Shown here: positions 1 to 20,366 of the stretch, piece after piece
Position numbering within the stretch: the stretch's first letter is position 1
Layout of the letters: each line of letters begins with the position of its first letter
Virus record (IMG/VR): IMGVR_UViG_3300017779_000226
Span: 1 to 20,366 of that record
Length of the DNA stretch: 20,366 nucleotides
Reading direction: 5' to 3' (one strand)
DNA from: a virus
Position numbers and translations under genes: made by a program
The notes under the pieces: generated by a model
What the model was told of the DNA's origin: nothing
Database searches by the model: none
The model's input: only the letters and a program-made list of their open reading frames with translations

Positions 1-570
1 ACAGACGAAGAAGCATTTGCTGAATCAAAAGAAATGTTTCCTGATATAGAATATACAAGAACAATAAAGTTTGACGCAGGTAGATTTAAAAAAACATGGA
101 TAAATAATTGTATTGCAGTAGGTTTATCTTCTGGTTTTACTGAACCACTTGAAGCAACATCTATCTGGATGGCAACTGAACAATTAAAATTACTTGAAAC
201 GTTTATTGACGTTATGTTTACAAATGATGAAGATACTAAAAAAGATTATAACGAAGTAATTGCAAATAATAACGATATGGTTATGGAGTTTTTACACTAT
301 CACTATATGACTAAAAGAGACGATAGTCCTTTTTGGAAAGAGTTTAGAAAGAAAAATGTTTTAGCTAAGTTTAATGCTAAGTTAGAACAAATACAAAAAG
401 GTAATCTAAGATGGTATCATACAACAGGCGGAAAACTTACATCAACATTTAATCTTATGTCATGGTTACATGTAGGCGAAGGTCAAGGTCTTATTAAAGA
501 TATAAGTATTGAAGGATATGAAAACTTAAACCCAACAGTAGAAGAATATGGCAGACACTTACCTAGGTAA
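1..570 (+). CDS. Flavin-dependent (tryptophan-type) halogenase, C-terminal part, cut by window start
   Basis: The reading frame is open from base 1, so the gene begins outside the window and only about the last 189 residues are seen. The stretch AVGLSSGFTEPLEAT (from about base 115) matches the conserved GFxEPLExT segment of flavin-dependent tryptophan halogenases. In that family a glutamate there helps bind and activate the hypohalous intermediate. A second landmark, HYHYMTKRDDSPFWKE, aligns with AMHYALSLRDDTPYWQD in the complete halogenase at 15911-17401, so the two are homologous but clearly diverged. The flavin-binding GxGxxG and the WxWxIP motif would lie upstream and cannot be checked. 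Its last 23 bases overlap the terminase start, which suggests shared transcription and coupled translation. The substrate is unknown; 'tryptophan' is only the family name. Marine phage halogenases are established (the cyanophage enzyme VirX1 accepts varied substrates). Confidence 0.85.
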   Translation, partial: TDEEAFAESKEMFPDIEYTRTIKFDAGRFKKTWINNCIAVGLSSGFTEPLEATSIWMATEQLKLLETFIDVMFTNDEDTKKDYNEVIANNNDMVMEFLHYHYMTKRDDSPFWKEFRKKNVLAKFNAKLEQIQKGNLRWYHTTGGKLTSTFNLMSWLHVGEGQGLIKDISIEGYENLNPTVEEYGRHLPR

Positions 571-2185
571 TCCTAATTTAAAAGCGGCTAATCAAAAGAT
601 ACGTTTTACAAAAAAACAAGTAAGAGAGTTTCTTGCTTGTCAGGAGAATCCTGTTTACTTTATAGAAAACTACATTAAAATTGTTACACTAGACCACGGT
701 CTACAACAATTCAAAATGTATAACTTTCAAAAAGAAATGGTAGATACTTTCCATGATAATCGTTTTAGTATTTGTAAACTACCAAGACAGACTGGTAAGT
801 CAACAACAATTATATCTTATCTATTACATTATGCTATCTTTAACGCAAACACAAATATTGCCATACTTGCAAACAAAGCTGCGATTGCAAGAGACCTATT
901 AGGTCGTTTACAACTTGCATATGAGAATTTACCTAAGTGGTTACAACAAGGTGTTATAAACTGGAACAAAGGTAGTTTAGAATTAGAAAATGGTAGTAGA
1001 ATACTTGCAGCTGCTACATCATCAAGTGCCGTACGGGGTGGTTCTTATAATGTAATATTCTTAGATGAGTTTGCTTATGTACCAAATAATATTGCAGAAC
1101 AATTTTTTAGTTCAGTTTATCCTACAATATCTTCTGGTAAAAGTTCTAAAGTAATGATTGTATCTACACCACATGGTATGAATATGTTTTATAAAATGTG
1201 GAATGACGCAACAAACAAACGAAATAGTTATGTACCTATTGAAGTGCATTGGTCAGAGGTACCTGGTAGAGACGAAAAGTGGAAAGATGAAACAATAAAG
1301 AACACAAGTGAACAACAGTTTAGAACGGAGTTTGAATGTGAGTTTTTAGGTAGTGTAGATACATTAATTAATAGTGCTAAGTTAAGAACGTTATCACATA
1401 ACACACCAATACAGTCTAACGCAGGTTTAGATATACACGAAATGCCTATTAATGGTCATAGATATGTTGTTACAGTTGATGTTGCAAGAGGTACAGTCAA
1501 TGACTATTCTGCCTTTATAGTTACAGACGCAAGTCAAATACCTTACAAAGTAGTTGCGAAGTATAAGAACAATGAAATTAAACCTTTAATCTTTCCTCAA
1601 GTAATTCATAAGATTGCAAAGTCATATAACAATGCAGAAATATTAGTTGAAGTAAATGATATTGGTGGTCAAGTTGCAGACACTTTACAGTTTGATTTAG
1701 AATACGACAATCTTATTATGGTTAATCAAAGAGGTCGTTCTGGTCAGATTGCAGGTACAGGATTTAGTGGTAAGAAATCACAACTAGGATTGCGTACAAC
1801 TAAGGCGACAAAGAAAATAGGTTGTTCAAATTTAAAAGCAATGATAGAATTAGATAAGTATATAATCCAAGATTTTGATGTAATCGCAGAATTATCAACT
1901 TATGTATTAAAAGGTAAAGAAAAATACGAAGCAGAGGAAGGTAGTTCAGACGACTTAGTGACTTGCCTTGTTATGTTTGCCTGGTTGTCAAACCAAATGT
2001 ATTTTAAAGAGTTAACAGACCAAGATATACGAGCAAGACTTGTAGATGAACAACAAAATCAAATGGACCAAGACATGGCACCATTTGGATTTGTAGATGA
2101 CGGAATAGAAAGTCCTGAAGGAGAAACATATAAGGACCCACATGGGACTAGTTGGAGTCCTGTCAAATACAAGAGAGGTTGGTAA
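548..2185 (+). CDS. 17: Terminase large subunit (gp17-like DNA packaging ATPase/nuclease)
   Basis: This motor protein pumps DNA into the prohead through the portal and cuts the concatemer. The 545 residues compare with about 610 in T4 gp17. The ATPase domain has a Walker A motif PRQTGKST at residues 79-86, a Walker B plus catalytic glutamate VIFLDEF at 169-175, and a coupling motif STPHG at 206-210. The C-terminal RNase H-fold nuclease shows VTVDVARG with D311, a VEVND segment with E368, and SSDDLVTCLVMFAWL near residue 475. Together these match the three metal-binding acidic residues of T4 gp17. The ATG at 548 lies inside the end of the halogenase gene, with only a weak purine run before it, so coupling to upstream translation is likely. 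No small terminase subunit is visible in the window. Confidence 0.97.
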   Translation: MADTYLGNPNLKAANQKIRFTKKQVREFLACQENPVYFIENYIKIVTLDHGLQQFKMYNFQKEMVDTFHDNRFSICKLPRQTGKSTTIISYLLHYAIFNANTNIAILANKAAIARDLLGRLQLAYENLPKWLQQGVINWNKGSLELENGSRILAAATSSSAVRGGSYNVIFLDEFAYVPNNIAEQFFSSVYPTISSGKSSKVMIVSTPHGMNMFYKMWNDATNKRNSYVPIEVHWSEVPGRDEKWKDETIKNTSEQQFRTEFECEFLGSVDTLINSAKLRTLSHNTPIQSNAGLDIHEMPINGHRYVVTVDVARGTVNDYSAFIVTDASQIPYKVVAKYKNNEIKPLIFPQVIHKIAKSYNNAEILVEVNDIGGQVADTLQFDLEYDNLIMVNQRGRSGQIAGTGFSGKKSQLGLRTTKATKKIGCSNLKAMIELDKYIIQDFDVIAELSTYVLKGKEKYEAEEGSSDDLVTCLVMFAWLSNQMYFKELTDQDIRARLVDEQQNQMDQDMAPFGFVDDGIESPEGETYKDPHGTSWSPVKYKRGW

Positions 2186-2196
2186 ATCTTGCATAT

Positions 2197-2204
2197 TATA
2201 AATA
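2197..2204 (+). promoter_or_regulatory. T4-type late promoter upstream of tail sheath gene
   Basis: The exact T4 late consensus TATAAATA followed by G lies in the 81-base gap between terminase and sheath genes. It is read in T4 by gp55-bound RNA polymerase, and a gp55 gene is present at 15357-15914. Transcription would begin about 6 bases downstream, near 2210, right at a stem-loop. Confidence 0.8.
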
Positions 2205-2210
2205 GTTTCT

Positions 2211-2246
2211 GTAATTAACAATAATTACAAATTAATATATTAATTT
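2211..2246 (+). promoter_or_regulatory. Two back-to-back 18-base dyads in the sheath mRNA leader
   Basis: The first dyad (2211-2228) has 7-base arms GTAATTA/TAATTAC around the loop ACAA. The second (2229-2246) is a perfect 18-base palindrome with half-site AAATTAATA. They start where the late transcript should begin and end 20 bases before the sheath ATG, just upstream of the AAGAGGAG ribosome site. A role in 5' mRNA stability or translation control is inference; the second stem is all A/T and weak as RNA. Confidence 0.5.
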
Positions 2247-2266
2247 AATTAAGAGGAGAAAACAAG

Positions 2267-4252
2267 ATGGCTTTTTTAGTTTCACCTGGTGTTCTCGTAA
2301 CAGAAAAAGACCTTACTAACGTAGTACCAGCTGTATCATCATCTATTGGTGGTTTAGTTGTAGTTAGTGAGAAAGGTCCAATGGATGAGATTACTTTAAT
2401 CTCAAGCGAAGATGAATACGTTAGTACGTTTGGTAAACCAGACGCTAACACTTTTGAATATTTTTTTACGGCAGCCAACTTTTTACAATACGGAAATGCC
2501 CTAAGGGTAGTAAGAGCAGTCACTGGTAATCTGAACGCAGGTTCAAGTTCAGGTTTACAAGTTAAAAATACGACTGACTACTTAGACAATTATAGCGACG
2601 GTTCTGCTTCAGTAGGCTCATGGCTTGCAAGAGAAGCAGGAACTCAAGGTAACAACCTAAAAGTATCTATGTGTACAAATAGCAATGCATATGCAAGTGC
2701 TGGCGGTGCCTCAAACTTAGTTAATGACGCAAGTGCGGCTATTGGCGATACTACTATCACAATTGATGATGGTGGTGGAGACAAGATCCAAACAGGCGAC
2801 ATTGTTGAGTTTGGAGATATCTCTGGTAACTTCAATGCAGCTCCTTCTGGTCAATACTACAAAGTAACAGGCACTTCAGGTGCAGTTCTAACCATTGCAA
2901 GATTTAATCCTGCTTCTGGTAAAACTGAAACTGGCGGACTAAGACACGCTGTTGCTGATAACGCATACTTTAGAAGATTTTGGGAATTTTATTTCAATTT
3001 CTCAGCTGCACCAACATCAACAGATGATGTTGTTAACGCAGGTGGTTCTAATGATGAGTTACATATCGTAGTTGCAGACGAGGATGGCGGCATTTCGGGC
3101 ACAGCAGGTACTATATTAGAAACACACGAAGGATTATCACAAGCTTCAGACGCTAAAGACGCTCAAGGTGATTCCAATTATTATGTTGACGCTCTATACA
3201 ATAGAAGTCAATTTATATACTGGATGGACCATGAGAGTACATTAGCAAATGCAGGTAGTTCAAAAGTAGGTCAAGCATTTGATAATACTGGTACTCAAGG
3301 CATAACAGTCTTTAGTTCTAGTCTTACAGGTGGTACAGACGATAACGCACCAACTAACGGTGAATTAGCATTAGGTTATGATAAATTTGCTGATAGTGCA
3401 AGCGTTGACGTTAACTTACTTATGACTGGTCCTTCACATACAGGTGCTGACGCAACTGGAGATACCAAAGCAACTAAAGTTATTGACATAGTTGAAGCAA
3501 GAAAAGATTGTGTAGCATTTATTTCGCCTGCTAGAGCAGACGTTGTAAACGTAAGCGATCCTATTGCACAAACTGTTAATGTTAAAGCTTTTGCAGACGG
3601 TCTTGCTTCAAGTTCATATGCAGTTATTGATAGTGGATACAAATACATGTACGACAAATACAACGGCGTATATAGATATGTTCCATTAAACGGTGACATT
3701 GCTGGACTTTGTGCTAGAACAGACGCAGTTGCTGATAGTTGGTTCTCACCGGCTGGGTTTACAAGAGGTCAGATTAGAGGTGCAGTTAAACTTGCCTTTG
3801 ATCCTAACCAAGCGCAAAGAGACGACTTATACAAAGCAAGAGTAAATCCTGTGGTAACATTCCCAGGACAAGGTACTGTATTGTTTGGTGATAAGACAGC
3901 TCAAGCGAAACCTAGTGCTTTTGACAGAATAAATGTTAGAAGATTGTTCATAACTATGGAAAAGGCAATATCAACTGCTGCTAAATTCCAACTCTTTGAG
4001 TTCAATGATGAATTTACAAGAGCGAATTTCAGAAACTTGATAGAACCATTCCTTAGAGACGTACAAGGTAGACGTGGTATCACAGACTTTAAAGTAGTGT
4101 GTGATGAAACAAACAATGTAAGTGCAGTTATAGATAGAAACGAATTTGTTGCAGACATATTTGTCAAACCAAATCGTTCTATTAACTTCATCAAACTTAA
4201 CTTCGTAGCTACAAGAACAGGCGTTGCCTTTTCTGAAGTAGCAGGCGCATAG
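2267..4252 (+). CDS. 18: Tail sheath protein (gp18-like)
   Basis: This is the contractile sheath subunit that polymerises around the tail tube and shortens at infection. The 661 residues are close to T4 gp18 (659). The N-terminus (FLVSPGVLVTEKDL) and the segment TFGKPDANTFEYFFTAANFLQYGNALRVVRAV (residues about 54-85) closely follow T4 gp18, where the same block reads TFGQPTAETADYFMSAMNFLQYGNDLRVVRAV. The C-terminal block (DRINVRRLFITMEKAISTAAKFQLFEFNDEFTRANFRNLIEPFLRDVQGRRGI) is the conserved sheath core. The middle third is Ser/Thr/Gly/Asp-rich, as expected for exposed insertion domains. A strong ribosome site (AAGAGGAG) precedes the ATG. It is transcribed from its own late promoter and followed after 14 bases by the tube gene. 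Confidence 0.96.
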   Translation: MAFLVSPGVLVTEKDLTNVVPAVSSSIGGLVVVSEKGPMDEITLISSEDEYVSTFGKPDANTFEYFFTAANFLQYGNALRVVRAVTGNLNAGSSSGLQVKNTTDYLDNYSDGSASVGSWLAREAGTQGNNLKVSMCTNSNAYASAGGASNLVNDASAAIGDTTITIDDGGGDKIQTGDIVEFGDISGNFNAAPSGQYYKVTGTSGAVLTIARFNPASGKTETGGLRHAVADNAYFRRFWEFYFNFSAAPTSTDDVVNAGGSNDELHIVVADEDGGISGTAGTILETHEGLSQASDAKDAQGDSNYYVDALYNRSQFIYWMDHESTLANAGSSKVGQAFDNTGTQGITVFSSSLTGGTDDNAPTNGELALGYDKFADSASVDVNLLMTGPSHTGADATGDTKATKVIDIVEARKDCVAFISPARADVVNVSDPIAQTVNVKAFADGLASSSYAVIDSGYKYMYDKYNGVYRYVPLNGDIAGLCARTDAVADSWFSPAGFTRGQIRGAVKLAFDPNQAQRDDLYKARVNPVVTFPGQGTVLFGDKTAQAKPSAFDRINVRRLFITMEKAISTAAKFQLFEFNDEFTRANFRNLIEPFLRDVQGRRGITDFKVVCDETNNVSAVIDRNEFVADIFVKPNRSINFIKLNFVATRTGVAFSEVAGA

Positions 4253-4266
4253 AGAGGAAATAAAAA

Positions 4267-4794
4267 ATGGCAAACGTATCAGACTTTATCTCCAAACTTA
4301 AAGGCGGCGGAGCTAGACAAAATCAGTTTAAGGTTACAATGCCTTTCCCTGGTTTTGCTGCTGTTGGTGGCGAAACTGAGAACATGTCGTTCTTATGTTC
4401 TGCTACTCAACTTCCAAGTTCTGAGTTAGGAGAATTAACTGTAAACTTTAGAGGTAGACCAATACATATGGCTGGTGATAGAACATTCCAAACTTGGAGT
4501 ACAACTATTATCAACGATACTTCTTTTGATATCAGAAATGCTATTGAAAGATGGTCAAATGGTATTAACAACCATAGTGACAACGAAGGTTTAAACAACC
4601 CTACTGATTATCAAGTGGACGCATTTATCGACCACTTAGATAGAAATGGTAATACAATCAAATCGTACACATTTAGAGGATTATTTCCTTTAACAATAGG
4701 TACAGTTGATTTGAACTATGATCCAGTAAGTGCGTTAGAGACTTTTGAATGTACATGGAGATACCAATACTGGGAAAGTAACACTACAACGTAA
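4267..4794 (+). CDS. 19: Tail tube protein (gp19-like)
   Basis: This is the inner tube subunit through which DNA passes into the host. The length, 175 residues, fits T4 gp19 (163) and its marine relatives. The start (MANVSDFISKLKGGGARQNQFKVTMPFPG) and the block LTVNFRGRPIHMAGDRTFQTWSTTIINDTSFDIRNAIERW are characteristic of the tube family. That block carries the beta-hairpin and helix of the tube fold. It ends with an aromatic ECTWRYQYW strand. It sits 14 bases after the sheath gene, with the sequence AGAGG in the gap as ribosome site, so sheath and tube share one late transcript. A stem-loop and new late promoter follow its stop codon. Confidence 0.95.
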   Translation: MANVSDFISKLKGGGARQNQFKVTMPFPGFAAVGGETENMSFLCSATQLPSSELGELTVNFRGRPIHMAGDRTFQTWSTTIINDTSFDIRNAIERWSNGINNHSDNEGLNNPTDYQVDAFIDHLDRNGNTIKSYTFRGLFPLTIGTVDLNYDPVSALETFECTWRYQYWESNTTT

Positions 4795-4802
4795 TGTTGT
4801 GA

Positions 4803-4832
4803 ATTTATAGCGGTCTCCGGGCCGCTATAAAT
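4803..4832 (+). repeat. Perfect 11-bp inverted repeat whose right arm holds the portal late promoter
   Basis: The left arm ATTTATAGCGG (4803-4813) and right arm CCGCTATAAAT (4822-4832) are perfect complements around the 8-base loop TCTCCGGG. The GC-rich core is striking in this AT-rich DNA. The gap between tube and portal genes is only 69 bases. No T-run follows, so it is not a standard intrinsic terminator. It could slow or end read-through from gp19, protect the mRNA 3' end, or act as a DNA site at the promoter. Confidence 0.75.
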
Positions 4833-4833
4833 A
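4826..4833 (+). promoter_or_regulatory. T4-type late promoter upstream of portal gene
   Basis: Exact TATAAATA followed by G, lying 30 bases before the portal GTG. Seven of its eight bases belong to the right arm of the 4803-4832 inverted repeat, so hairpin formation and promoter use could compete. Confidence 0.75.
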
Positions 4834-4863
4834 GAAATAAAAGATAATGAAAAGGAGAATGTA

Positions 4864-6393
4864 GTGGCAGAATTTTTTGGCTTTGAAATCAAAAGAGCAA
4901 GCACCAAAACAACTAGTCAAACGTTTACAGCACCATCAGCTGATGATGGCGTTCAAACGATTATGGGTGGTGGACATTATGGTACTTACTTAGATATTGA
5001 AGGAAAAGTAAACAACGAAGCAGATTTAATTAGAAGGTATAGAGAGGTTGCTATGCAACCTGAGTGTGACCAAGCGATTGAAGATGTTATCAATGAAGGT
5101 ATAGTAATTGATGACAATAGAGAAACAATCAGACTGAACATGCATACAGTACCTTTCTCAACAGGTATAAAAAAGAAGATAGAAGAAGAATTTAATAATA
5201 TTATTTCGTTATTGGAATTTGAACAAAAAGGACATGACATATTTCGTAGATGGTATGTTGATGGTAGAATAGTATATCATAAGATAATAGACCCTAAAAA
5301 TATAAAAGGTGGTATTACTGAATTAAGATATATTGATCCTAGAAAAATTAAGAAAGTTCGTAAACCTAAGAAGACTGAGGGCGAACAAAGTTTTAAACCT
5401 AAAGACCAAAACGCACCACCAGTTGTAGATTTTGAAGAATTTTATATTTACAATGAGAAAGGTGTACAACCGGGAGCAAGTTCAACACAAGGTTTAGCAA
5501 TTAGTAAAGATAGTATTGCTTTCTGTCCGTCAGGAATGATTGACCAACAAAGAAACATGATACTATCACATTTACATAAGGCAATTAAACCTGTCAATCA
5601 ATTAAGAATGATTGAAGATAGTATTGTTATATACAGAATATCCAGAGCGCCTGAAAGAAGAATATTTTACATTGATGTAGGTAACTTACCAAAAGCAAAA
5701 GCAGAGCAATATCTAAAAGATGTAATGAACAGATATAGAAACAAACTTGTCTATGACGCAAGTACAGGTGAAATAAGAGACGATAGACAATACATGTCTA
5801 TGTTAGAAGACTTTTGGTTACCAAGACGAGAAGGTGGTAGAGGTACAGAAATTACTACACTACCAGGTGGTTCTAACTTAGGTGAAGTAGAAGATATCAA
5901 ATACTTTCAAAAGAAACTTTACAAGTCATTAAACGTTCCTGTATCCAGATTAGAAGCTGAAGGTAGTTTTAATATGGGTAGAGCAACTGAGATTAATAGA
6001 GACGAGTTAAAGTTTAGTAAATTTGTTGATAGACTAAGAACAAGATTTAATGCTTTGTTCCATGATTTATTGAAAACACAATTAATACTAAAAGGTATTA
6101 TATCAATAGAAGATTGGGAAAACAGTTTAGCAAGAACAATCAGATACAACTATGTAAATGACGGTTACTATGCTGAAATAAAAGAAGCAGAAATGTTAAA
6201 AGAAAGAATGGAAATTTATCGTAACTTGAAAGATAGTGAATTGATAGGTAACGTTTATTCTAAAGAGTGGGCAATGAAGAATGTTTTAAAAATGACTGAC
6301 ATTGACATTGACGAAGAAAAATCTAAAATAGAAAAAGAAAAGGAGGCGGAAGCGCCACCAGAAGGAGAAGATGATGACACAGGACAATTCTAA
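4864..6393 (+). CDS. 20: Portal vertex protein (gp20-like), GTG start
   Basis: This forms the twelve-subunit ring at the unique head vertex, initiates prohead assembly and docks the packaging motor and neck. The 509 residues match the T4 gp20 length (524). Recognisable family blocks include REVAMQPECDQAIEDVINEGIV near residue 60, the long IDPRKIKKVRKPKK region, LHKAIKPVNQLRMIEDSIVIYRISRAPERRIFYIDVGNLPKAKAEQYLKDVMNRYRNKLVYDASTGEI (about 239-306), and the LYKSLNVPVSRLEAE helix-loop. The start is a GTG placed 6 bases after AAGGAG. No in-frame ATG gives a full N-terminus. An ATG at 4859 overlaps this start but is followed at once by TAG. The acidic C-terminal tail (KEKEAEAPPEGEDDD) overlaps the next gene by 23 bases. 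Confidence 0.96.
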   Translation: MAEFFGFEIKRASTKTTSQTFTAPSADDGVQTIMGGGHYGTYLDIEGKVNNEADLIRRYREVAMQPECDQAIEDVINEGIVIDDNRETIRLNMHTVPFSTGIKKKIEEEFNNIISLLEFEQKGHDIFRRWYVDGRIVYHKIIDPKNIKGGITELRYIDPRKIKKVRKPKKTEGEQSFKPKDQNAPPVVDFEEFYIYNEKGVQPGASSTQGLAISKDSIAFCPSGMIDQQRNMILSHLHKAIKPVNQLRMIEDSIVIYRISRAPERRIFYIDVGNLPKAKAEQYLKDVMNRYRNKLVYDASTGEIRDDRQYMSMLEDFWLPRREGGRGTEITTLPGGSNLGEVEDIKYFQKKLYKSLNVPVSRLEAEGSFNMGRATEINRDELKFSKFVDRLRTRFNALFHDLLKTQLILKGIISIEDWENSLARTIRYNYVNDGYYAEIKEAEMLKERMEIYRNLKDSELIGNVYSKEWAMKNVLKMTDIDIDEEKSKIEKEKEAEAPPEGEDDDTGQF

Positions 6394-6589
6394 CCCAACA
6401 AGAGATATGATTGACGCTTTGCAAAAAGGCGATAACTTAGGTGCTGAAACGGCATTTAAATCTGCTTTATCAAATAAAGTAGGTACTGAGTTAGATGACA
6501 AACGTAAAGACGTTGCGTCAACAATTATGGCAAAAGAACCGGAAACAAACAATGATAACGCTGAACAATCTACGGAAATTGACGACTGA
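6371..6589 (+). CDS. 67: Prohead core protein (gp67-like)
   Basis: This is a 72-residue acidic protein located directly after the portal gene, as gene 67 is in T4. Residues 13-50 (MIDALQKGDNLGAETAFKSALSNKVGTELDDKRKDVASTIM) resemble the start of T4 gp67 (LIEAIKSNDLVAARKLFAEAMAARTIDLIKEEKIAIARNFL) in pattern and spacing. The tail is rich in Glu/Asp/Asn. T4 gp67 is a minor internal scaffold protein needed for correct head shape and is largely degraded by gp21. The ATG lies in the last codons of the portal gene, with GAAGGAGAAG as an internal ribosome site. The identification rests on position and weak similarity. Confidence 0.7.
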   Translation: MMTQDNSNPTRDMIDALQKGDNLGAETAFKSALSNKVGTELDDKRKDVASTIMAKEPETNNDNAEQSTEIDD

Positions 6590-6800
6590 AAAAAACGAAC
6601 ATAAACGTTCACTAGTCTATAAGAAATTAGCGCCAAAATCAAAAGAGGCGGTAGATGACGTATATACTCAGCTTGAAAAGAAACCGGGACAAGTGTTAAT
6701 GAATTTTAGTAAAGTTATGAATGACGTTACTAAGAAGTATAAAGTACAAAGAAAAGATATCGAAGCCTATTTTAAAAAAGAAACTGGCATAACCATATAA
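6552..6800 (+). CDS. 68: Prohead core protein (gp68-like), start uncertain
   Basis: This is a small, very basic, Lys-rich protein in the place of T4 gene 68, between gene 67 and the protease gene. The conserved-looking part is residues from KRSLVYKKLAPKSKEAVDDVYTQLEKKPGQVLMNFSKVMNDVTKKYKVQRKDIEAYFKKETG. It reads as two or three helices. T4 gp68 is an internal core protein that affects head length. The frame is open from an ATG at 6495, but that would put most of the extra N-terminus opposite the gp67 frame. I chose the ATG at 6552 (82 codons); a TTG at 6579 is also possible. None has a good ribosome site, so coupling to gp67 translation is likely. The symbol is by synteny more than by clear similarity. 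Confidence 0.6.
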   Translation: MITLNNLRKLTTEKNEHKRSLVYKKLAPKSKEAVDDVYTQLEKKPGQVLMNFSKVMNDVTKKYKVQRKDIEAYFKKETGITI

Positions 6801-6816
6801 ACAAAAAGGAGTAGAA

Positions 6817-7607: not shown

Positions 7608-7615
7608 CATAAATA
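7608..7615 (+). promoter_or_regulatory. Late-promoter-like box upstream of protease gene
   Basis: CATAAATA followed by G: seven of eight matches to the T4 late consensus, located immediately after the stop of the preceding gene and 19 bases before the gp21 ATG. It shares the ATAAATAG core with the gp18, gp20 and gp22 leaders. Confidence 0.6.
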
Positions 7616-7634
7616 GGACTAAAGGAATAAACAT

Positions 7635-8291: not shown

Positions 8292-8297
8292 TAAATA
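8290..8297 (+). promoter_or_regulatory. Late-promoter-like box upstream of scaffold gene
   Basis: AATAAATA followed by G overlaps the gp21 stop codon and lies 48 bases before the scaffold ATG. It has seven of eight consensus matches. The high demand for scaffold and capsid protein makes a promoter here plausible, and the next intrinsic terminator is after gp23. Confidence 0.6.
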
Positions 8298-11895: not shown

Positions 11896-11898
11896 ATT

Positions 11899-12434: not shown

Positions 12435-12435
12435 T

Positions 12436-13266: not shown

Positions 13267-14701
13267 CGAATCCTATATTAAGTGTACAAGTGAAGATTTA
13301 GGACTGTTACAGTCTTTATCTGATTTTTTTACATTTCAAGTACCAGGTGCCAGCTTTATGCCGTCTGTAAGAGCAAGACGTTGGGACGGTAAAATAAGAA
13401 TGTTTAGTAAAGCAACTGGTAAAATTTACTATGGGTTACTACCGTATATAAACGAATTTTGTCGCCGGAACGCACATACAATCACACACGAAGCACCTGA
13501 AACCATTGGTGTGAACCATCCTACCAATCTTTTTTCCAAGTATATTGATGGTTTATCTATACCTAACATCAAACCAAGAGAATATCAAATAGGAGCGGTT
13601 CAACATGCAATCAATAATAAACGTGCTGTATTAGTATCGCCAACTGCTTCAGGTAAGTCTCTAATCATCTATTGTATTATACGAATGATAAGAGAAAGTG
13701 ATGGAAAGATATTATTAGTAGTACCAACTACATCACTAGTAGAACAAATGTATAAAGACTTTATATCATATGGGTATGACGCAGAAACAAATGTACAAAG
13801 AAAGTATTATGGTTATGAGATAGATGAAGATAAGAAGATAGTTGTATCTACATGGCAATCTCTGGCAACATTTGATAAGAAATACTTTGAACAGTTTGAT
13901 TGTGTAATAGGTGATGAAGCACACTTATATAAATCAAAAGAATTACAAAAGATTATGGCAGCTTGCATTAATGCCAAGTTTAGAATAGGTACAACTGGTA
14001 CACTAGATGATAGTAAAGTACACAAGTTAGTATTAGAAGGTCTCTTTGGACCTGTTCACTATGTTACAACTACAAAAGAATTAATAGATAAGAAACAATT
14101 AGCGGATTTAAAAATAGAATGTATTGTCTTAAAATATCCAAAAGAAGAATGTATGCAAATAAAAAATGCTAAGTTCCAAGACGAGATTGACTATATAGTA
14201 ACACACGAAAGAAGAAATAAGTTTTTAACTAATCTGGCAATCGACCAAAAAGGTAATACTCTAGTTCTATTTCAGTATGTAGAAAAACATGGAAAACCTT
14301 TACATGACCAAATAAAGGCAAAAGCAAAAGACCGTAAAGTATTTTTTGTTTACGGCGGAACAGAAACAAATGATAGAGAAAGAATTAGAGCAATCACAGA
14401 AAAGTTGGACAACACGATTATTGTCGCTTCTTACGGGACGTTTAGCACTGGTATCAATATTCGTAACTTACACAACATTATTTTTAGTAGCCCTACTAAA
14501 TCACCTATAAGAGTTTTACAATCTATAGGTCGTGGTTTAAGATTAGGTGAGCAGAAAGATACTGCTAAAGTGTATGATATATCTGACGATTTTACTTATA
14601 AAGAAAAGAAGAACTTTACAATCCAGCACTTTTTGGAAAGGATAAATATTTACAATGAACAACAGTTTGATTATGATATACACACGGTGGACTTGATATG
14701 A
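13238..14701 (+). CDS. uvsW: RNA-DNA / DNA helicase UvsW
   Basis: UvsW is an SF2 helicase that unwinds R-loops and Holliday-like branched DNA, switching T4 from origin to recombination-dependent replication. The 487 residues match T4 UvsW (about 500). A Q-type motif (REYQIGA) lies near 114-120, Walker A SPTASGKS at 134-141, motif II DEAH at 226-229, motif III TGTLDD at 253-258, motif V SYGTFSTGINI near 398-408, and motif VI QSIGRGLRLG at 428-437. The N-terminal 100 residues include a WDGKIRMF segment typical of the UvsW DNA-binding domain. The ATG lies inside the previous gene and the stop overlaps the next ATG (ATGA), so it is in the middle of a coupled operon. Confidence 0.96.
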   Translation: MSELKITKFNESYIKCTSEDLGLLQSLSDFFTFQVPGASFMPSVRARRWDGKIRMFSKATGKIYYGLLPYINEFCRRNAHTITHEAPETIGVNHPTNLFSKYIDGLSIPNIKPREYQIGAVQHAINNKRAVLVSPTASGKSLIIYCIIRMIRESDGKILLVVPTTSLVEQMYKDFISYGYDAETNVQRKYYGYEIDEDKKIVVSTWQSLATFDKKYFEQFDCVIGDEAHLYKSKELQKIMAACINAKFRIGTTGTLDDSKVHKLVLEGLFGPVHYVTTTKELIDKKQLADLKIECIVLKYPKEECMQIKNAKFQDEIDYIVTHERRNKFLTNLAIDQKGNTLVLFQYVEKHGKPLHDQIKAKAKDRKVFFVYGGTETNDRERIRAITEKLDNTIIVASYGTFSTGINIRNLHNIIFSSPTKSPIRVLQSIGRGLRLGEQKDTAKVYDISDDFTYKEKKNFTIQHFLERINIYNEQQFDYDIHTVDLI

Positions 14702-15171
14702 GAACTCCAAAGAAAGGAAGTAAAGTGACTACTAACCCTAAAGAGACTATTAAGAAGATACCAACACCTAGAATAGTAAAGTTAAATTCAGGTGAACAAC
14801 TTGTTGCCATAGTAATGGTACAAGATAACTCAGATTTTATAAGATTAGAAGAACCTTACATTATACAGTTACACCCACATGACTTTTTGGGAGACTATAT
14901 GATGGAAGAAAAGATGACAATTAAACCTTGGTTATTCAAGTCTAAAGATAAAGTAATATCTATACATAAAAATAATATTTTATGTTTTGCAGTTCCTACA
15001 GATGATATTTCTGAGTATTATATGAATATTCGTAGTGGAAAACTAAGACAATCGCCTGAAGAAATAAAGAAACACAGAGCCGCTGCTTTTGGTAAATTGT
15101 TAGACCAATTGGGCGATGTTGAGTATGACGAGACACAAGACTACTTAATGGGTAAGAAGACAGTACACTAA
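14698..15171 (+). CDS. Small Sm-like-fold candidate protein between uvsW and gp55, function unknown
   Basis: I do not recognise a named T4 homologue for this 157-residue protein. After a basic N-terminus (RTPKKGSKVTTNPKETIKKIPTPR), residues 24-58 (IVKLNSGEQLVAIVMVQDNSDFIRLEEPYIIQL) have the strand pattern of an Sm/Lsm-like barrel (LxSGEExxAxVxxxDxxxIxLxxP). ISIHKNNILCFAVPTDDISEYYMN near the middle would be the closing strands. The C-terminus is charged. If the fold guess is right, an RNA-binding or regulatory role would fit, but nothing proves it. Its ATG overlaps the uvsW stop (ATGA). It ends at the gp55 control region, and a consensus promoter on the opposite strand fires toward it. Confidence 0.8.
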   Translation: MRTPKKGSKVTTNPKETIKKIPTPRIVKLNSGEQLVAIVMVQDNSDFIRLEEPYIIQLHPHDFLGDYMMEEKMTIKPWLFKSKDKVISIHKNNILCFAVPTDDISEYYMNIRSGKLRQSPEEIKKHRAAAFGKLLDQLGDVEYDETQDYLMGKKTVH

Positions 15172-15187
15172 GGTAACTCTAAGGTAA
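15168..15187 (+). repeat. Tandem CTAAGGTAA repeat, 11-base period
   Basis: CTAAGGTAA occurs at 15168-15176 and 15179-15187. The first copy includes the stop codon of the preceding gene. A one-helical-turn period is what a protein bound to one face of DNA would use. It lies just downstream of the minus-strand promoter's predicted start. Two copies only, so chance is possible. Confidence 0.4.
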
Positions 15188-15213
15188 TCTATCTCTGAAG
15201 GAGGCACATGCCT

Positions 15214-15242
15214 ATTATATACCATTTTGTTCAAATTGTCAA
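15214..15242 (-). promoter_or_regulatory. Full-consensus sigma70 promoter pointing left
   Basis: On the minus strand the -35 is TTGACA (15242-15237), the spacer is 17 bases, and the -10 is TATAAT (15219-15214): all twelve consensus bases. Transcription would start near 15207 and run antisense into the 14698-15171 gene and then uvsW. No convincing minus-strand gene lies there. A regulatory antisense RNA is one reading; an unused chance match is the other. Confidence 0.65.
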
Positions 15243-15283
15243 GCGCTTAAACCAAAAAAAATGAAAATAATTTATTACTACAA

Positions 15284-15318
15284 AATCTAGTATAACAGCT
15301 TGACTTTTTTACTAGATT
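15284..15318 (+). repeat. 9-bp inverted repeat around the gp55 -35 box
   Basis: AATCTAGTA (15284-15292) and TACTAGATT (15310-15318) are exact complements separated by 17 bases that contain the -35 TTGACT. The right arm sits in the promoter spacer. This is the layout of a two-half-site operator. Confidence 0.55.
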
Positions 15319-15328
15319 GTGATATAAT
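15300..15328 (+). promoter_or_regulatory. Strong sigma70-type promoter for gp55
   Basis: The -35 is TTGACT (15300-15305), the spacer is 17 bases and the -10 is TATAAT (15323-15328) with an upstream TG (extended -10). It shares GTGATATAATA with the uvsY promoter. Start of transcription is expected near 15335, about 22 bases before the gp55 ATG, leaving room for the ribosome site AAAAAGGAA. Confidence 0.87.
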
Positions 15329-15356
15329 AGGGTAATATTTTAAAAAGGAATATAAT

Positions 15357-15914
15357 ATGAAAAATACACAACCAATCAAGGTTCCTAAAAAGAAAGAGCA
15401 TTATGTCTCTAATAAAGAATTTTTAGTTGCCATGAAAGAATATAAATTAAAGTGTATAGCGGCAGAAAAGAAAAAGAAACCTAGACCACCAATAACTGAT
15501 TACATTGGTGAGTGTTTTCTAAAGATTGCTAATCATTTATCATATAGACCAAACTTCATTAATTACACTTATAAAGAAGATATGATATCTGATGGTATAG
15601 AAAATTGTTTACAATATGTTTCTAACTTTGATCCAACAAAATCAAATAATCCATTTGCTTACTTTACACAAATAATATACTACGCATTTATAAGAAGAAT
15701 CCAAAAAGAAAAGAAACAAACAATTATTAAACAGAAACTAATAATGAAGTCTGGTTTAGATGAGTTAGTTTCACAAGAAGCAGATAATACAGAATATCAA
15801 AACGCATATGCTGACTTTTTAAGAAAGAATATGGTAGAGATAGCACCTGATAAACCAAAAGAAAAGAAACCAAGGAAGAAAAAAGTATCTAAACTAGAAT
15901 ACTTTATGCAATGA
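15357..15914 (+). CDS. 55: Late-transcription sigma factor gp55
   Basis: gp55 replaces sigma70 on host RNA polymerase and recognises the TATAAATA box of late promoters, working with gp33 and the gp45 sliding clamp. The length, 185 residues, equals that of T4 gp55. The block INYTYKEDMISDGIENCLQYVSNFDPTKSNNPFAYFTQIIYYAFIRRIQKEKK (about 74-126) corresponds to T4 [56 protein letters not shown], the sigma region 2-like part that holds polymerase and reads the -10. The C-terminal region (KPKEKKPRKKKVSKLEYFMQ) is very basic before a short hydrophobic end, as is usual for the clamp-binding tail. It is driven by its own sigma70 promoter and coupled to the next gene by ATGA. Confidence 0.93.
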   Translation: MKNTQPIKVPKKKEHYVSNKEFLVAMKEYKLKCIAAEKKKKPRPPITDYIGECFLKIANHLSYRPNFINYTYKEDMISDGIENCLQYVSNFDPTKSNNPFAYFTQIIYYAFIRRIQKEKKQTIIKQKLIMKSGLDELVSQEADNTEYQNAYADFLRKNMVEIAPDKPKEKKPRKKKVSKLEYFMQ

Positions 15915-17401
15915 AAAATATTATAGTTGTGGGTGGTGGTAGTGCAGGCTGGATGTCAGCAGCTACACTCATTCGTACCTTTCCTGATAAAAATATAACT
16001 GTAATAGAAAGTCCAGATGTATCTACAGTTGGTGTAGGTGAAAGTACATTAGGTCATATCAATGGTTGGTTAAATTATCTCAACATTGAAGACAAAGACT
16101 TTATGCCTTACTGTGACGCTAGTTATAAGTTATCAATTAAATTTACAGACTTCTATAAAAAAGGTGCAGGTTCATTTCATTACCCATTTGGCAGACCATA
16201 TTATTGGGACGATAAAGAAAGAAACAAATGGTACTTTAGAAAACAATTATTAAATTTACCTAATAGTGATTATGCTGAGTGCATGTCACCCAATGTATTA
16301 ATTTCTAATGCTAATAAAATAAGTGATATTAATGATATTTTACCTAACTACAATTTTAAAACAGATACCGCTTATCATTTTGACGCCACTAAATTTGGTT
16401 TATGGTTAAAAGAACATTATTGTTTACCAAGAGGTGTGAAACATGTATTAGAAAATGTAAATCTTGTACAACAAAATGATAATGGTGTATCACATATCAA
16501 TTCACATGAATGTGATTTAGTCATAGACTGTACAGGTTTTAAATCTATGATATTAAATAAAGTTGGTGGTGATTTTATATCTTACAATGATATATTACCT
16601 AATGATAGTGCATGGGCAACAAGAATGCCATACACAAACAAAGAACAACAACTAGAACCATATACAAATTGTACGGCGATAGATAATGGTTGGGTGTGGA
16701 ATATACCTAGTTGGGAAAGAATTGGTACTGGTTATGTTTATTCAAGTAAATATATCAATGATGATGACGCATTAATACAATTTAAACAATACTTAGGTAG
16801 AGACGATTTAGAATTTAAAAACATCCGTATGAGAGTTGGCAGACAAAAAGAAATGTGGATAAAAAATGTATGTTCAATTGGTTTATCTGCCGGATTTATA
16901 GAACCATTAGAGAGCACAGGTCTTTTACAAACACATACGTTTATAATGAAACTAGTATCTAATTTAGAACGAGGTGATTTTTCACAATGGGATAGAGACA
17001 CACACAACTTAGAGTGTAATAGTATTTTTGATGAGTATGTTACATTTGTTGCCATGCATTATGCCTTATCATTAAGAGACGATACACCATATTGGCAAGA
17101 TGTAAGAAAAAGAAGTTTGGTACATTTAAAAGAAGTACAATCTTTAATGAATGCCAAAATGCAAGATTACTATTTTAACCCATTAGGTGGTATGCATTAT
17201 ATAGCAACAGGTTTAAATTGGCAGGCAGTATCATTATTAGATGTAGAACAATTATTGTATGACCCGGATACAAAAGAGATAAACGAAGAATGGACAAATC
17301 ATTTAGAACAAAACAAACAAGATTGGCAAAAAATAGTAAATACTATGCCATCTTTATATCAATATTTAAAAGACAACATATATGAAAATCGCCCTAGTTA
17401 A
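15911..17401 (+). CDS. Flavin-dependent halogenase (tryptophan halogenase family), complete
   Basis: These enzymes use FADH2, oxygen and halide to form HOX, which travels through a tunnel and is held by an active-site lysine to halogenate an organic substrate. The 496 residues are near the usual 500-540. The FAD-binding GGGSAGW is at residues 8-14, TVGVGEST at 39-46, YKLSIKF at 72-78 with K73 in the position of the catalytic lysine (K79 of PrnA), the signature WVWNIP at 261-266, and GFIEPLEST at 328-336 with the catalytic glutamate region. All key motifs are intact, so activity is likely. The substrate cannot be told from sequence, and no flavin reductase is seen nearby. The ATG overlaps the gp55 stop (ATGA) and the end overlaps gp47 by 20 bases, so it is part of the replication/transcription operon. 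Confidence 0.93.
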   Translation: MKNIIVVGGGSAGWMSAATLIRTFPDKNITVIESPDVSTVGVGESTLGHINGWLNYLNIEDKDFMPYCDASYKLSIKFTDFYKKGAGSFHYPFGRPYYWDDKERNKWYFRKQLLNLPNSDYAECMSPNVLISNANKISDINDILPNYNFKTDTAYHFDATKFGLWLKEHYCLPRGVKHVLENVNLVQQNDNGVSHINSHECDLVIDCTGFKSMILNKVGGDFISYNDILPNDSAWATRMPYTNKEQQLEPYTNCTAIDNGWVWNIPSWERIGTGYVYSSKYINDDDALIQFKQYLGRDDLEFKNIRMRVGRQKEMWIKNVCSIGLSAGFIEPLESTGLLQTHTFIMKLVSNLERGDFSQWDRDTHNLECNSIFDEYVTFVAMHYALSLRDDTPYWQDVRKRSLVHLKEVQSLMNAKMQDYYFNPLGGMHYIATGLNWQAVSLLDVEQLLYDPDTKEINEEWTNHLEQNKQDWQKIVNTMPSLYQYLKDNIYENRPS

Positions 17402-18425
17402 CGACACACATTTTGGATGTCGTAATGACAATCCAAATTACCATGAATACATGTATAAGTTTTGGCAAAAACAATTCTTTCCATACTTAGAACAAAACGA
17501 TATCAAAACAATTATTCATTTAGGTGATATATTAGATAGACGTAAGTATGTAAACTTTAAAACACTTACTGATTTTAATAATAAGATAGTAAGTCAATTT
17601 AAGAAATATGATACACACTTTATAGTAGGTAACCATGATACCTATTACAAGAACACAAATGAAGTAAACGCACCTAAAGAATTGTTAAGTCAGTTTAAAG
17701 TTTATTCAGACCCACAAAAGATTACAATTGCAGGACATGATATATTGATTATACCATGGGTAACACCTGAAAACTACGATAGAACTAAAATGATGTTAGA
17801 ACAAGAAACAGCAGACATTGTTATGGGTCATTTAGAGATTAAAGGTTTTGAAATGCATACTGGACATCATTCAGATGTAGGTGTAGAAAAAGAAATGTTT
17901 AAAAGATTTGAAACAGTATTATCTGGTCACTTTCATAAGAAATCAGATGATGGTCATATATTTTACCTTGGTTGTCAATATGAAATGACTTGGTCAGATT
18001 ATAAATGTCCTAAACACTTTCACATTTACGATACAGAAACAAGAGAACTTAAAGCAATACGAAACCCTTTAACAATACATCATAAAATATATTACAATGA
18101 TGAAACTACAGATTATAAGAACTTTGATTTTAATGAATGTAATAACAAATACATTAAACTTATAGTAGAAAAGAAATCAGACTACTTTATGTTTGATAAA
18201 TTTGTTGATGATATTTACCAAAAGTCTAATGTATATGATTTAAAAATTATAGAAGATTATTCAGACTTAGACGCTTCAACAGTAAATGATGATATAGTTG
18301 AAAAGACGGAAGATACACCAACTTTACTTGATACCTATATAGAACAAACAGATACGAATTTAAATAAAGATAGATTAAAAACCTTAATGAAAAGTTTATA
18401 TACGGAGGCATTTGACTATGAGTAA
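17382..18425 (+). CDS. 47: Recombination endonuclease subunit gp47 (Mre11/SbcD-like)
   Basis: This is the nuclease partner of gp46. The complex resects DNA ends to give 3' ssDNA for UvsX/UvsY and degrades host DNA. The 347 residues match T4 gp47 (339). The calcineurin-like phosphoesterase motifs are all present: DTH at 8-10 (D8, H10), GDILDRR at 48-54, GNHD at 83-86, GH at 149-150 and SGHFHK at 181-186, which supply the two-metal centre. The rest is the capping domain and a helical tail that should contact gp46. It starts within the halogenase gene. In T4, genes 47 and 46 are also neighbours, separated by small genes; here an oxygenase gene fills that place. Confidence 0.95.
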   Translation: MKIALVNDTHFGCRNDNPNYHEYMYKFWQKQFFPYLEQNDIKTIIHLGDILDRRKYVNFKTLTDFNNKIVSQFKKYDTHFIVGNHDTYYKNTNEVNAPKELLSQFKVYSDPQKITIAGHDILIIPWVTPENYDRTKMMLEQETADIVMGHLEIKGFEMHTGHHSDVGVEKEMFKRFETVLSGHFHKKSDDGHIFYLGCQYEMTWSDYKCPKHFHIYDTETRELKAIRNPLTIHHKIYYNDETTDYKNFDFNECNNKYIKLIVEKKSDYFMFDKFVDDIYQKSNVYDLKIIEDYSDLDASTVNDDIVEKTEDTPTLLDTYIEQTDTNLNKDRLKTLMKSLYTEAFDYE

Positions 18426-19131
18426 TTACGACCACAAATATGAATATAAAAATATGTACTTTGGTCCTTACATCTATCATTGTAAATTAGACCCACAATT
18501 TTGTAAAGATTTATTAGAACAAGGTGATAAAACTACAGATAGATATTTACAAGAAGACGGTACATATACTAATCAAATTATTAAAGATAGTTTAGCAGGT
18601 GATTTAAAAACAGGACATGAAAGACAATTTGATGGCAAACAACAAAGATGGTTTAATAAAAGTTTAAAAGATGTGTTTACACATTATACAAAAGAACGTA
18701 TGAACTTTCATAACTATATTTTTGTACCAGATTATGTAATAGAGAACGTATGGATTAATTATCAACATGCCAATGAATATCAACCTGAACATACACATTC
18801 TGGTGACTTTAGTTGGGTAATCTATTTACAGATACCAGAGGGCATGAAAGCAGAAAGAGAAAATTATAAAAAGAAAGGTCCTGGTCCTGGTTGTATTGCA
18901 TTTAGTTATGGCGAGACAAGTGGCAATCCAGATGTAACTTTTCCTTGGGTAACAAATATTCACATGGGAGTACCTGAAGCAAATGAAATGTATATCTTTC
19001 CGTCTCAGTTAAAACATGCTGTGCCACCATTTAAGTGTGATGGTGTAAGAATATCAGTAAGTGGTAATGGTGCGTTTCAAAGACCAGATAGTAAACTATA
19101 TGTTATGGGAGAAAAAAGATACGAAGTATGA
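18418..19131 (+). CDS. Putative 2OG-Fe(II) oxygenase
   Basis: Members of this double-stranded beta-helix family use 2-oxoglutarate, O2 and Fe(II) to hydroxylate proteins, nucleic acids or small molecules. The 237 residues end in a recognisable core: WINYQHANEYQPEHTHSGDFSWVIYLQIPEG (112-142) and MYIFPSQLKHAVPPFKCDGVRISVSGN (191-217). Candidate metal ligands are H125 or H127 with D130 and the distal H200; R211 is the likely 2OG-binding arginine. This matches the pattern of the phage/cyanobacterial 2OG-FeII_Oxy_5-type family. I chose the ATG at 18418, 9 bases after GGAGG; a TTG at 18412 is too close to that site. It overlaps gp47 by 8 bases and its stop overlaps the gp46 ATG (ATGA). The target is unknown. 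Confidence 0.8.
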   Translation: MSNYDHKYEYKNMYFGPYIYHCKLDPQFCKDLLEQGDKTTDRYLQEDGTYTNQIIKDSLAGDLKTGHERQFDGKQQRWFNKSLKDVFTHYTKERMNFHNYIFVPDYVIENVWINYQHANEYQPEHTHSGDFSWVIYLQIPEGMKAERENYKKKGPGPGCIAFSYGETSGNPDVTFPWVTNIHMGVPEANEMYIFPSQLKHAVPPFKCDGVRISVSGNGAFQRPDSKLYVMGEKRYEV

Positions 19132-20366
19132 TAGTATTTGAAAAGATTAAATGGAAGAACTTTCTTTCAACAGGACAACAAGGTATAGAAATAGATTTAA
19201 ACAAAGACGAAACAACACTTATTATAGGTCATAACGGTGCAGGTAAGTCAACTATACTTGACGCATTGTGTTTTGCTTTATTTAATAAAGCTTTTAGAGA
19301 TATAAAGAAAGAACAATTAATTAACAGTATTAACTTAGGTGGTACTGAGATAGAAGTAAACTTTACCATTGCACAAAACAAGTATAGAGTAGTACGAGGT
19401 ATTAAACCTAATATATTTCAGATATACTTAAATGGTGAAATGATAAACCAAGAAGCAACTATAGCTGACCAACAAAAACATTTAGAGAATAATATACTTA
19501 AATTTAACTATAGAAGTTTTACTCAGGTAGTAATCTTAGGTAGTAGTACATTTGTTCCTTTTATGGAATTGAAGTCACCACATAGACGAGAGGTAGTAGA
19601 AGACATTTTAGATATTAAGATATTTTCAGTAATGAATATGTTAGTTAAAATGCAAATCAAAGAAGTTACTGAACAGATAAGAGATATTGATAGAGATATA
19701 CAAATAACAAAGAGTAAGGTAGAAACTCAACAACAATATTTACAAGATACAGGTAAGCAGAATACAAAAGTTATAGATGATTATAATTCTAAGATAGAAG
19801 ATAATAAACAAGCAATAGACAAGTATTCAACACATGTTGATGGTATCAATAAACAGATAACAAATATTAAAACAACAATACTAGATGAAGATAAGGTAAG
19901 ACAACAAGTTAAGAAACTGAATAGTTTTGAAACACAATTTGAAAGTAAAGTAAATCAATGTACAAAACATAAGAAGTTTTATGAACTCAATGATAACTGT
20001 CCTACTTGTCAACAAAGTATTGACCCACAATTTAAATCAGAAAAGATTGCTGATGAAAACAAATCACTTATTAAATTTAATCAGGCATTAGCAGATGTTG
20101 CCAAAGAGATTACAACTAAACAAAATAGATTACAAGCAATTGCTAGTGTACATGAAGAAATAAAAGTATTAGAGATTGATAGTGTTAAGTATGAACAATC
20201 AAAAAATGAGTTACACAATATTAACACAAAACTGGCACATAACATTGAACAGTTATCACAACAAAGTGAAGACACAGGTAAAGCAAAAGGTAAGTTAGAA
20301 GAATTAGAAAATCAATTACAAGAATATGAAAATTCAATAAGAACTAAAAAAGAAGAAACTGATTAC
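19128..20366 (+). CDS. 46: Recombination endonuclease subunit gp46 (Rad50/SbcC-like), cut by window end
   Basis: The frame is open from the ATG at 19128 to the last base (413 codons seen of perhaps 560-580). gp46 is the ABC-type ATPase that works with gp47. Walker A GHNGAGKST is at residues 34-42 after the opening MIVFEKIKWKNFLSTG. A Q-loop-like segment (FTQVVILGSSTFVPFMEL) follows near 130-145. Long charged coiled-coil helices rich in Gln/Lys/Asp run from about 175. The zinc hook CPTC is at 291-294, which joins two molecules at the coiled-coil tip, and the returning coil continues to the edge. The ABC signature, Walker B and H-loop lie beyond the window. The start overlaps the oxygenase stop (ATGA). 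Confidence 0.95.
   Translation, partial: MIVFEKIKWKNFLSTGQQGIEIDLNKDETTLIIGHNGAGKSTILDALCFALFNKAFRDIKKEQLINSINLGGTEIEVNFTIAQNKYRVVRGIKPNIFQIYLNGEMINQEATIADQQKHLENNILKFNYRSFTQVVILGSSTFVPFMELKSPHRREVVEDILDIKIFSVMNMLVKMQIKEVTEQIRDIDRDIQITKSKVETQQQYLQDTGKQNTKVIDDYNSKIEDNKQAIDKYSTHVDGINKQITNIKTTILDEDKVRQQVKKLNSFETQFESKVNQCTKHKKFYELNDNCPTCQQSIDPQFKSEKIADENKSLIKFNQALADVAKEITTKQNRLQAIASVHEEIKVLEIDSVKYEQSKNELHNINTKLAHNIEQLSQQSEDTGKAKGKLEELENQLQEYENSIRTKKEETDY

Follow-up and report, generated by a model that had tools for sequence, protein, structure and literature searches.

Surviving restriction sites in a pelagimyophage contig point to a putative DNA modification at GGA with DruA-like proteins as candidate makers

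Phage genomes are known for restriction-site avoidance, and a 20,366-base virus record from IMG/VR (IMGVR_UViG_3300017779_000226), analysed over its full length and hereafter referred to as the window, raises the question of why the pentamer GATGC, which reads GCATC on the other strand, is nearly missing from it. The window shows 95.1% identity over 93% to positions 64588-84077 of Pelagibacter phage HTVC008M, a Kyanoviridae phage with T4-like genes whose listed host is Candidatus Pelagibacter ubique HTCC1062; a second named relative, Mosig EXVC030M, has the same host. Here, we report that sites surviving in several depleted restriction-site families almost always carry GGA, and we weigh a phage DNA modification at GGA, with phage proteins of the DruA/DUF4338 family as its candidate makers, against other explanations.

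Depletion of GATGC and of further restriction sites

Throughout, paired counts a/b are observed/expected and O/E denotes their ratio. A preliminary description of the window had reported GATGC once (9582-9586, + strand) and GCATC never on the + strand, below expectation; our recount agreed, with 17.6 sites expected under a maximal-order Markov model and 20.0 from base composition. Codon usage did not account for this, as synonymous shuffling of the 22 coding sequences (CDS) gave 30.3 sites (standard deviation 4.0) for the one observed, with none of 1000 shuffles as low, and a stricter null that also kept all dinucleotide counts gave 25.4 (standard deviation 3.7; none of 400 as low). The sister words GCATG, GCATT and GCATA match expectation, and the codon choices described earlier were recovered: Asp is encoded by GAC 30 times and GAT once before Ala (GAC 153, GAT 256 before other residues), and Ala before TCN-encoded Ser uses GCT 12, GCG 3, GCC 2 and GCA 0 times. 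In HTVC008M the effect extends over the whole genome, which contains 23 sites in 147,284 bases versus 136 (Markov) or 184 (codon null, open reading frames (ORFs)). Both orientations of this asymmetric site are depleted in its coding strands (GATGC 14/118, GCATC 9/68), and Mosig has 33 sites versus 150 (Markov). Among T4-like sequences with at least 6 expected sites, the window included, 18 of 74 had O/E < 0.5 for GATGC, and avoidance is therefore a patchy trait in this group.

Two points were absent from the preliminary description, namely that GATGC is joined by many other depleted sites and that its lone survivor, which lies in the prohead scaffold (gp22-like) ORF (8346..9620, + strand), reads GGATGC. 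GATC, GANTC, TCNNGA, TCGA and CASTG are depleted alongside it. In HTVC008M, 34 of 475 REBASE recognition sequences with at least 8 expected sites had O/E < 0.25, including GANTC, GATGC, CASTG, TCGA and AGTACT, and in Mosig 31 of 479 did, many of these depleted sequences being nested versions of one another. The overall O/E in HTVC008M was 0.31-0.45 for GATC, ACGT, AGCT and TCNNGA, and Mosig has ACGT 0 vs 205 and GATC 19 vs 194. A generic rule acting on opposite-strand GA pairs was dropped, as strong loss is limited to the spacings of GATC, GANTC, TCGA and TCNNGA, and the other unprotected GA/TC spacings tested in HTVC008M are near normal (about 0.8-1.1).

Surviving sites carry GGA

In the window, 33 of the 34 surviving sites of four families contain GGA. 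All nine GATC sites (2785, 3557, 3800, 4720, 5335, 10276, 11069, 11313 and 15630; span 2785..15633) read GGATC on at least one strand, eight of nine GANTC sites (646, 2155, 3170, 9998, 10039, 10382, 13268 and 15697; span 646..15701) have the form GGANTC on one strand or both, each of the 15 TCNNGA sites (the first at 39 and the last at 18927; span 39..18932) reads TCNGGA on one strand, and the single GATGC follows G. The lone exception is an unprotected TGAATCA (22..26) within the first 33 contig bases, outside the CDS set. Within the CDS, forms not preceded by G (H, any base but G; D, its complement) are absent (HGATGC 0/24.3, none of 400 shuffles as low and likewise 0 in the whole window, 1..20366; HGATCD 0/19.5; HGANTCD 0/25.7; TCDHGA 0/27.5), and the protected forms are retained (GGATGC 1/1.1, GGATCN 10/11.5, GGANTC 9/6.5, TCNGGA 15/14.9).

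The rule holds across the whole HTVC008M genome, coding or not, where GGA occurs on at least one strand at 83 of 83 GATC, 43 of 43 GANTC and 141 of 141 TCNNGA sites, 267 of 267 together. Unprotected forms number HGATCD 0/165, HGANTCD 0/201 and TCDHGA 0/192, against GGATCD 54/88, GGANTC 48/58.8 and TCDGGA 137/105.7; GACTC alone occurs 15/11.4 after G and 0/80 after other bases. Fourteen of its 23 GATGC sites follow G, and GGATGC is undepleted there (14/13.0), in Mosig (19/14.0) and in 14 other low-GATGC loci pooled (21/19.5). Type II avoidance would be expected to deplete a site regardless of its flank, which is not what HTVC008M shows (HGATGC 9/174). Two further families follow the pattern, GAGATG (8/7.8 after G, otherwise 2/38.7) and GAAGAG (11/8.5 and 10/55.6), so that the G-flank exemption covers six motif families in this phage. 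GGGA alone is never protective: GGGATC, TCGGGA and GGGATGC are absent (0 vs about 14.5 over five forms), and both GGGANTC sites carry GGA on the opposite strand. The exempt context in HTVC008M is thus HGGA.

The GATGC gap is real, and its cause is most likely restriction. The earlier suggestion that sites were lost to host restriction stands in part: an SfaNI-type specificity fits, and codon nulls, both orientations, the other type II sites and AlwI-family systems in SAR11 (below) all agree with it. Yet the avoided sequence is HGATGC rather than GATGC, because GGATGC is untouched, and since five further motif families of HTVC008M share the G-flank exemption, an additional layer is needed, for which a phage DNA modification at GGA is the likeliest candidate.

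A two-layer model and candidate modification genes

We propose that the SAR11 cells met by the phage population carry many type II restriction enzymes, GATC-, GANTC-, TCGA-, TCNNGA- and GCATC-type among them, so that unprotected sites would be costly and purged by synonymous change. In a second layer, the phage would modify its DNA within 5'-GGA-3' (5'-HGGA-3' for HTVC008M), the modified base being either the adenine or its G/C neighbours. The mark would then sit within any GA-containing site preceded by G, where the enzymes could not cut and the site would be free to stay. That the survivor pattern reflects phage DNA modification at GGA is probable on the sequence evidence. The likeliest makers in HTVC008M would be one or both of its DruA/DUF4338 proteins, gp106 and gp122, an assignment that we put forward tentatively. 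For the reading in full, in which pelagimyophage DruA/DUF4338 proteins are sequence-specific base modifiers that mark 5'-GGA-3' and shield sites, the specificity of the mark is readable from retained sites, and SAR11 exerts pressure with many type II specificities, we estimate a probability of roughly 45%.

Three phage genes match Pfam DruA (PF14236; cut-off 27 bits) and also phrog_19197: gp106 of HTVC008M (86116-87258, between gp46 and a peptidase; 65.6 bits), gp122 of HTVC008M (99535-100659, after the DNA polymerase; 40.9 bits) and Mosig_00022, the single copy in Mosig (80.3 bits). No DruA match was found in the podoviruses HTVC010P, HTVC011P and HTVC019P. In HTVC008M, gp106 starts about 1.6 kb beyond the end of the gp46 gene, which places this slot outside the window. 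In HTVC008M and Mosig, the slot after gp46 is occupied by DruA; in a sister group it holds a C5-methylase, a PP-loop protein and an S-adenosylmethionine (SAM) methylase, the C5 gene occurring in 17 loci, none of them with DruA. In a further relative (G400), the slot contains an SPPY methylase-like protein, and SPPY and DPPY methylases also follow the DNA polymerase. An MT-A70 fragment adjoins the DNA polymerase of Mosig. The adenine methyltransferase annotated at the start of the Mosig record (L005 1-232) matches MT-A70, but the frame does not run across the joined record ends (L005 1-232, L007 41033-41461). More widely, 31 of 50,697 phage records contain DruA relatives, and 25 of the 31 are named Synechococcus phages; in four fetched cyanophages the gene sits between the clamp-loader genes gp44 and gp62, where S-H38 has Dam.

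It is less likely, although a serious alternative, that the GGA mark is real and comes from neither gp106 nor gp122 but from some other enzyme, for instance in a pathway that modifies G or C. GGA has TCC as its complement. HTVC008M is annotated with many 2-oxoglutarate (2OG)-Fe(II) oxygenases and two Nol-like carbamoyltransferases, and its gp104 shows a weak beta-glucosyltransferase match (E 1.4e-4); any of these proteins might take part in such a pathway. Against this, the C5-methylase model is unmatched in HTVC008M, and the DruA genes fill slots that hold DNA methylases in relatives. More generally, neither the Pfam DNA-methylase models PF00145, PF01555, PF02086 and PF05063 nor a motif scan yielded a standard DNA methylase in HTVC008M; the single NPPY found by the scan lies in a 153-aa ORF that is DUF6433 in Pfam.

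Restriction systems in SAR11

SAR11 bacteria are the most abundant in the ocean. In the available text of two reports, restriction was noted in 1 of more than 100 SAR11 genomes (PMC7029224) and in none of eight Pelagibacterales genomes (PMC9516812). Among 397 Pelagibacterales genomes, we found a D12 methylase above cut-off in 23 (12 full-length), RE_AlwI in 5 and C5 methylases in 71; methylase presence alone is no proof of restriction, and of the 23 D12 genomes the 12 full-length ones were examined, to unequal depth. Two genomes (G394 and G364) encode complete AlwI-family systems, with a D12 methylase, an AlwI-family nuclease and an N6_N4 methylase in a row and with PF02086, PF09491 and PF01555 matches at L243 11991-15414 and L244 7279-10705; in a third genome (G052) the pieces are split over two contigs. 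Fused methylases of 700-710 aa, encoded on Staphylococcus aureus and Enterococcus faecium plasmids beside AlwI-family nuclease genes, share about 50% identity in their N-half with the D12 methylase of SAR11. The SAR11 nuclease itself has diverged, matching the best-covered plasmid hit at 23.8% identity across 85% of its own length.

SfaNI-like restriction-modification (R-M) systems are described, in the portions available, from Caldicellulosiruptor (PMC9799307) and Staphylococcus xylosus (PMC10030836), with GCATC/GATGC recognition, an AlwI-family nuclease and adenine methylation of both strands, and the S. xylosus system has the fused-methylase architecture (PMC10030836). The SAR11 systems resemble these in pairing an AlwI-family nuclease with predicted adenine methylases for both strands and in the likeness of their D12 methylase to the N-half of the fused staphylococcal and enterococcal enzymes, and differ in having separate D12 and N6_N4 methylases and a diverged nuclease. 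They appear SfaNI-like, with a putative GCATC specificity. The 94 kb that surround SAR11 R-M loci have a normal HGATGC count (101/94.1) and a somewhat low one for HGANTCD (97/130.9); 80 Pelagibacteraceae loci (GATGC 0.79 and GANTC 0.60 of expected) were set aside, being rRNA-centred with unreliable ORF calls. In another genome (G200; L246 6635-11891), consecutive genes for a C5 methylase, an N6_N4-type methylase and a ResIII/SNF2 helicase look like a defence operon.

These systems would also serve plain restriction-site avoidance, in which hosts with SfaNI-type enzymes purge sites, the phage modifies nothing and the G-flank effect is a by-product. That known type II sites are depleted on either strand, and remain so under codon nulls, suits that explanation too. 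We nevertheless regard it as improbable, as it leaves unexplained why all 267 survivors in HTVC008M bear GGA and why one rule is common to six motif families.

The exemption appears to follow the phage

The podoviruses HTVC011P and HTVC019P, whose host is also HTCC1062, lack GATC (0 and 0) and nearly lack GANTC (1 and 6), in GG contexts too (GGATCN 0/21.1 and 0/21.3; GGANTC 0/15.2 and 0/15.6). The exemption therefore seems to belong to the phage rather than to the restriction enzymes. HGATGC is normal in these two phages and in HTVC010P, a podovirus of the same host, as it is in the cyanophages P-SSM4 and S-H38 (50 kb each). Which words are absent or rare differs from one podovirus to the next (L088, L482 and L483 for HTVC010P, HTVC011P and HTVC019P), CTAAG, CTCAG, CCAGG, GGACC, CATCC, GCAGC and GCGC being among them, a pattern that would fit encounters with different sets of restriction enzymes. 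An antirestriction protein is annotated in HTVC011P.

The exempt context also varies by phage, as for phage-encoded enzymes. Unlike HTVC008M with its GGGA rule, Mosig keeps GGGATCC (6/0.9). The 17 loci with the C5-methylase gene keep GGAATC (49/38.5) and GGATTC (48/39.9), with GGACTC at 0/14.8 and GGATGC at 9/22.5, and one of the loci with the C5 gene (L010) is near normal for HGATCD (36/43.2) and TCDHGA (39/44.0). The capsid proteins of L010 and of another locus (L009) are 94% and 95% identical to that of the window, yet their avoided sites are quite different: L009 has AGCT 1 vs 35 at 40% GC, and L010 retains GATC.

A further survey drew on 309 loci retrieved through their capsid, gp46 or DruA proteins, of which 255 with at least 5 kb of ORFs were profiled; the contigs overlap and are not independent. 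Avoiders were defined by O/E < 0.2 with at least 8 unprotected and at least 2 protected sites expected. GG-flanked sites stood above half of expectation in 31 of 31 GANTC avoiders, 35 of 36 TCNNGA avoiders and 6 of 8 GATGC avoiders (below 0.2 in one). Among 57 GATC avoiders, 28 keep one-sided GG-flanked sites above half of expectation and 15 fall below 0.2, some of these retaining GGATCC like Mosig. GATC avoidance occurred in 39 of 76 loci with DruA versus 18 of 160 loci where DruA was unseen. In 125 pooled loci with neither DruA nor the C5 module, GATC, GAATC, GATTC and TCNNGA are unpurged (0.83-1.16) and GACTC stands at 0.51-0.81. Some single loci with DruA unseen still avoid, and partial contigs cannot show absence.

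These data bear on whether the enzymes themselves refuse sites preceded by G, the true recognition sequences being HGATC, HGANTC, TCDHGA and HGATGC. Such enzymes would predict identical counts for HTVC008M taken alone and would account for the GG-flanked sites kept by every GANTC avoider, and the podoviruses may have met other enzymes that cut GG-flanked forms. However, the podovirus control makes an H flank in the recognition sequence unlikely, the same odd flank rule would be required of several unrelated enzymes, and the rule varies between phages; we hold this explanation to be slightly less probable than plain avoidance. We consider it more doubtful still that the GGA mark comes from a host enzyme. 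The lack of matches to four Pfam DNA-methylase families in HTVC008M would suit such a source, but podoviruses propagated on that host show no exemption, and which context is exempt depends on phage lineage and module. A bias of mutation or repair that removes words without nuclease selection is highly implausible, as it found no support here beyond the depletion itself, words one base away and other GA spacings are normal or near normal, both strands are affected and the missing words differ sharply between relatives.

Observations that weigh against the model

Several results fit a GGA modification by DruA-like proteins poorly. In the window, only 2 of 6 GAAGAG sites are preceded by G, and 9 unprotected HGATGC sites persist in HTVC008M. 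Under a plain synonymous shuffle, the protected forms of HTVC008M fall below all 60 shuffles (GGATCN 108/136.8, GGANTC 48/65.7), mildly low and far from zero, against 0 vs 214 for each of HGATCD and HGANTCD. One-sided HGGATCD is likewise somewhat low (54/83), mostly owing to GGATCT (13/38.6), with GGATCA at 35/39.3 and GGATCG at 6/5.5, and GGAGTC with the other strand unprotected is unspared (0/8.1). In Mosig, one-sided GGATC is unspared (0/62.8) and only GGATCC is kept (19/3.3), a pattern that needs a second kind of GATC enzyme. In addition, GCGATG is spared in HTVC008M without GGA: survivors of CGATG are mostly GCGATG (12 vs 15.8; other preceding bases 5 vs 59), and CGACG and CCGA show a similar trend. 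A GGA mark does not explain this survival, and there may therefore be a second protected context beside GGA.

For DruA specifically, G400 shows the GGA exemption without a DruA match (HGATCD 0/35.6, GGATCD 17/20.4, over 36 kb, L022 and L510, from a record of 177 kb), which rules out DruA as the sole maker across the whole group. In the DruA-bearing cyanophages S-SCSM2R, S-SSM7, S-CAM9 and S-SM2 (50 kb each), no purge and no exemption is seen; GATC, GANTC, TCNNGA and GATGC all go unavoided, and these phages are hence uninformative for the rule. The predicted gp106 structure (mean predicted local distance difference test score, pLDDT, 75.5) bears a weak resemblance to GCN5-related N-acetyltransferases (GNATs) that speaks for the model, with 43 of the 50 structural matches listed named acetyltransferase or GNAT (Z 5.5-6.8). 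These matches nevertheless stay below Z 8, and Foldseek returned none at E 0.001 (best E 0.045).

If the reading holds, the sequence context of a DNA modification in a widespread group of marine viruses would have been deduced from sequence alone, and phage DruA/DUF4338 proteins would gain a function. SAR11, usually described as being without restriction, would carry enough of it to purge hundreds of phage sites. It would also offer a general method, in which the contexts of surviving restriction sites reveal what a phage protects.

Comparison with known systems

Restriction-site avoidance in phage genomes was reportedly treated by Qian and Kussell in 2012. The present case is alike in that type II sites are counter-selected beyond codon nulls, and unlike in the GGA flank common to the survivors of six motif families, a feature not predicted by plain avoidance. 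Closer at hand, GANTC depletion has been described in about half of 33 pelagiphages (PMC9516812), a study that shares with ours the phage group, one motif and the puzzle of a SAR11 thought to be restriction-free. In the parts of its text available, it treats GANTC density, the G-flank exemption goes unmentioned and GATGC/GCATC is absent. The titles and abstract openings listed by literature searches contained no report of a GGA-dependent survival pattern.

Phage Mu Mom is described, in the accessible part of the source, as a GNAT-superfamily enzyme that acylates adenine and protects phage DNA (PMC7824862). The gp106 homologue in S-SCSM2R (PQ898602) is annotated as 'methylcarbamoylase mom', which is the likeness. 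The Pfam match of gp106 is DruA, and it is only a candidate member of the Mom family. The sequence context of Mu Mom is one that we take to differ from GGA. With the Druantia system the link is family membership, as gp106, gp122 and Mosig_00022 match DruA above cut-off; here, however, it is a phage gene among replication genes, and no Druantia operon is annotated around it.

Other genes of the window

The major capsid (gp23-like) ORF (9647..10909, + strand) served as a query for fetching relatives, and the gp46 (SbcC-like) ORF (19128..20366, + strand), a frame of 413 residues that aligns with HTVC008M, has no stop before the contig ends. Between the gp55-like and gp47-like genes, an interval in which HTVC008M has merely a 42-aa ORF, lies a tryptophan halogenase gene (15911-17401; PF04820, E 1e-98), and the window opens within another halogenase (34-570). 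In HTVC008M, a gene annotated as DNA endonuclease V (76476-76958) separates the tail-completion gene from the uvsY-like gene; going by coordinates, the window at 11858-12006 has no space for it.

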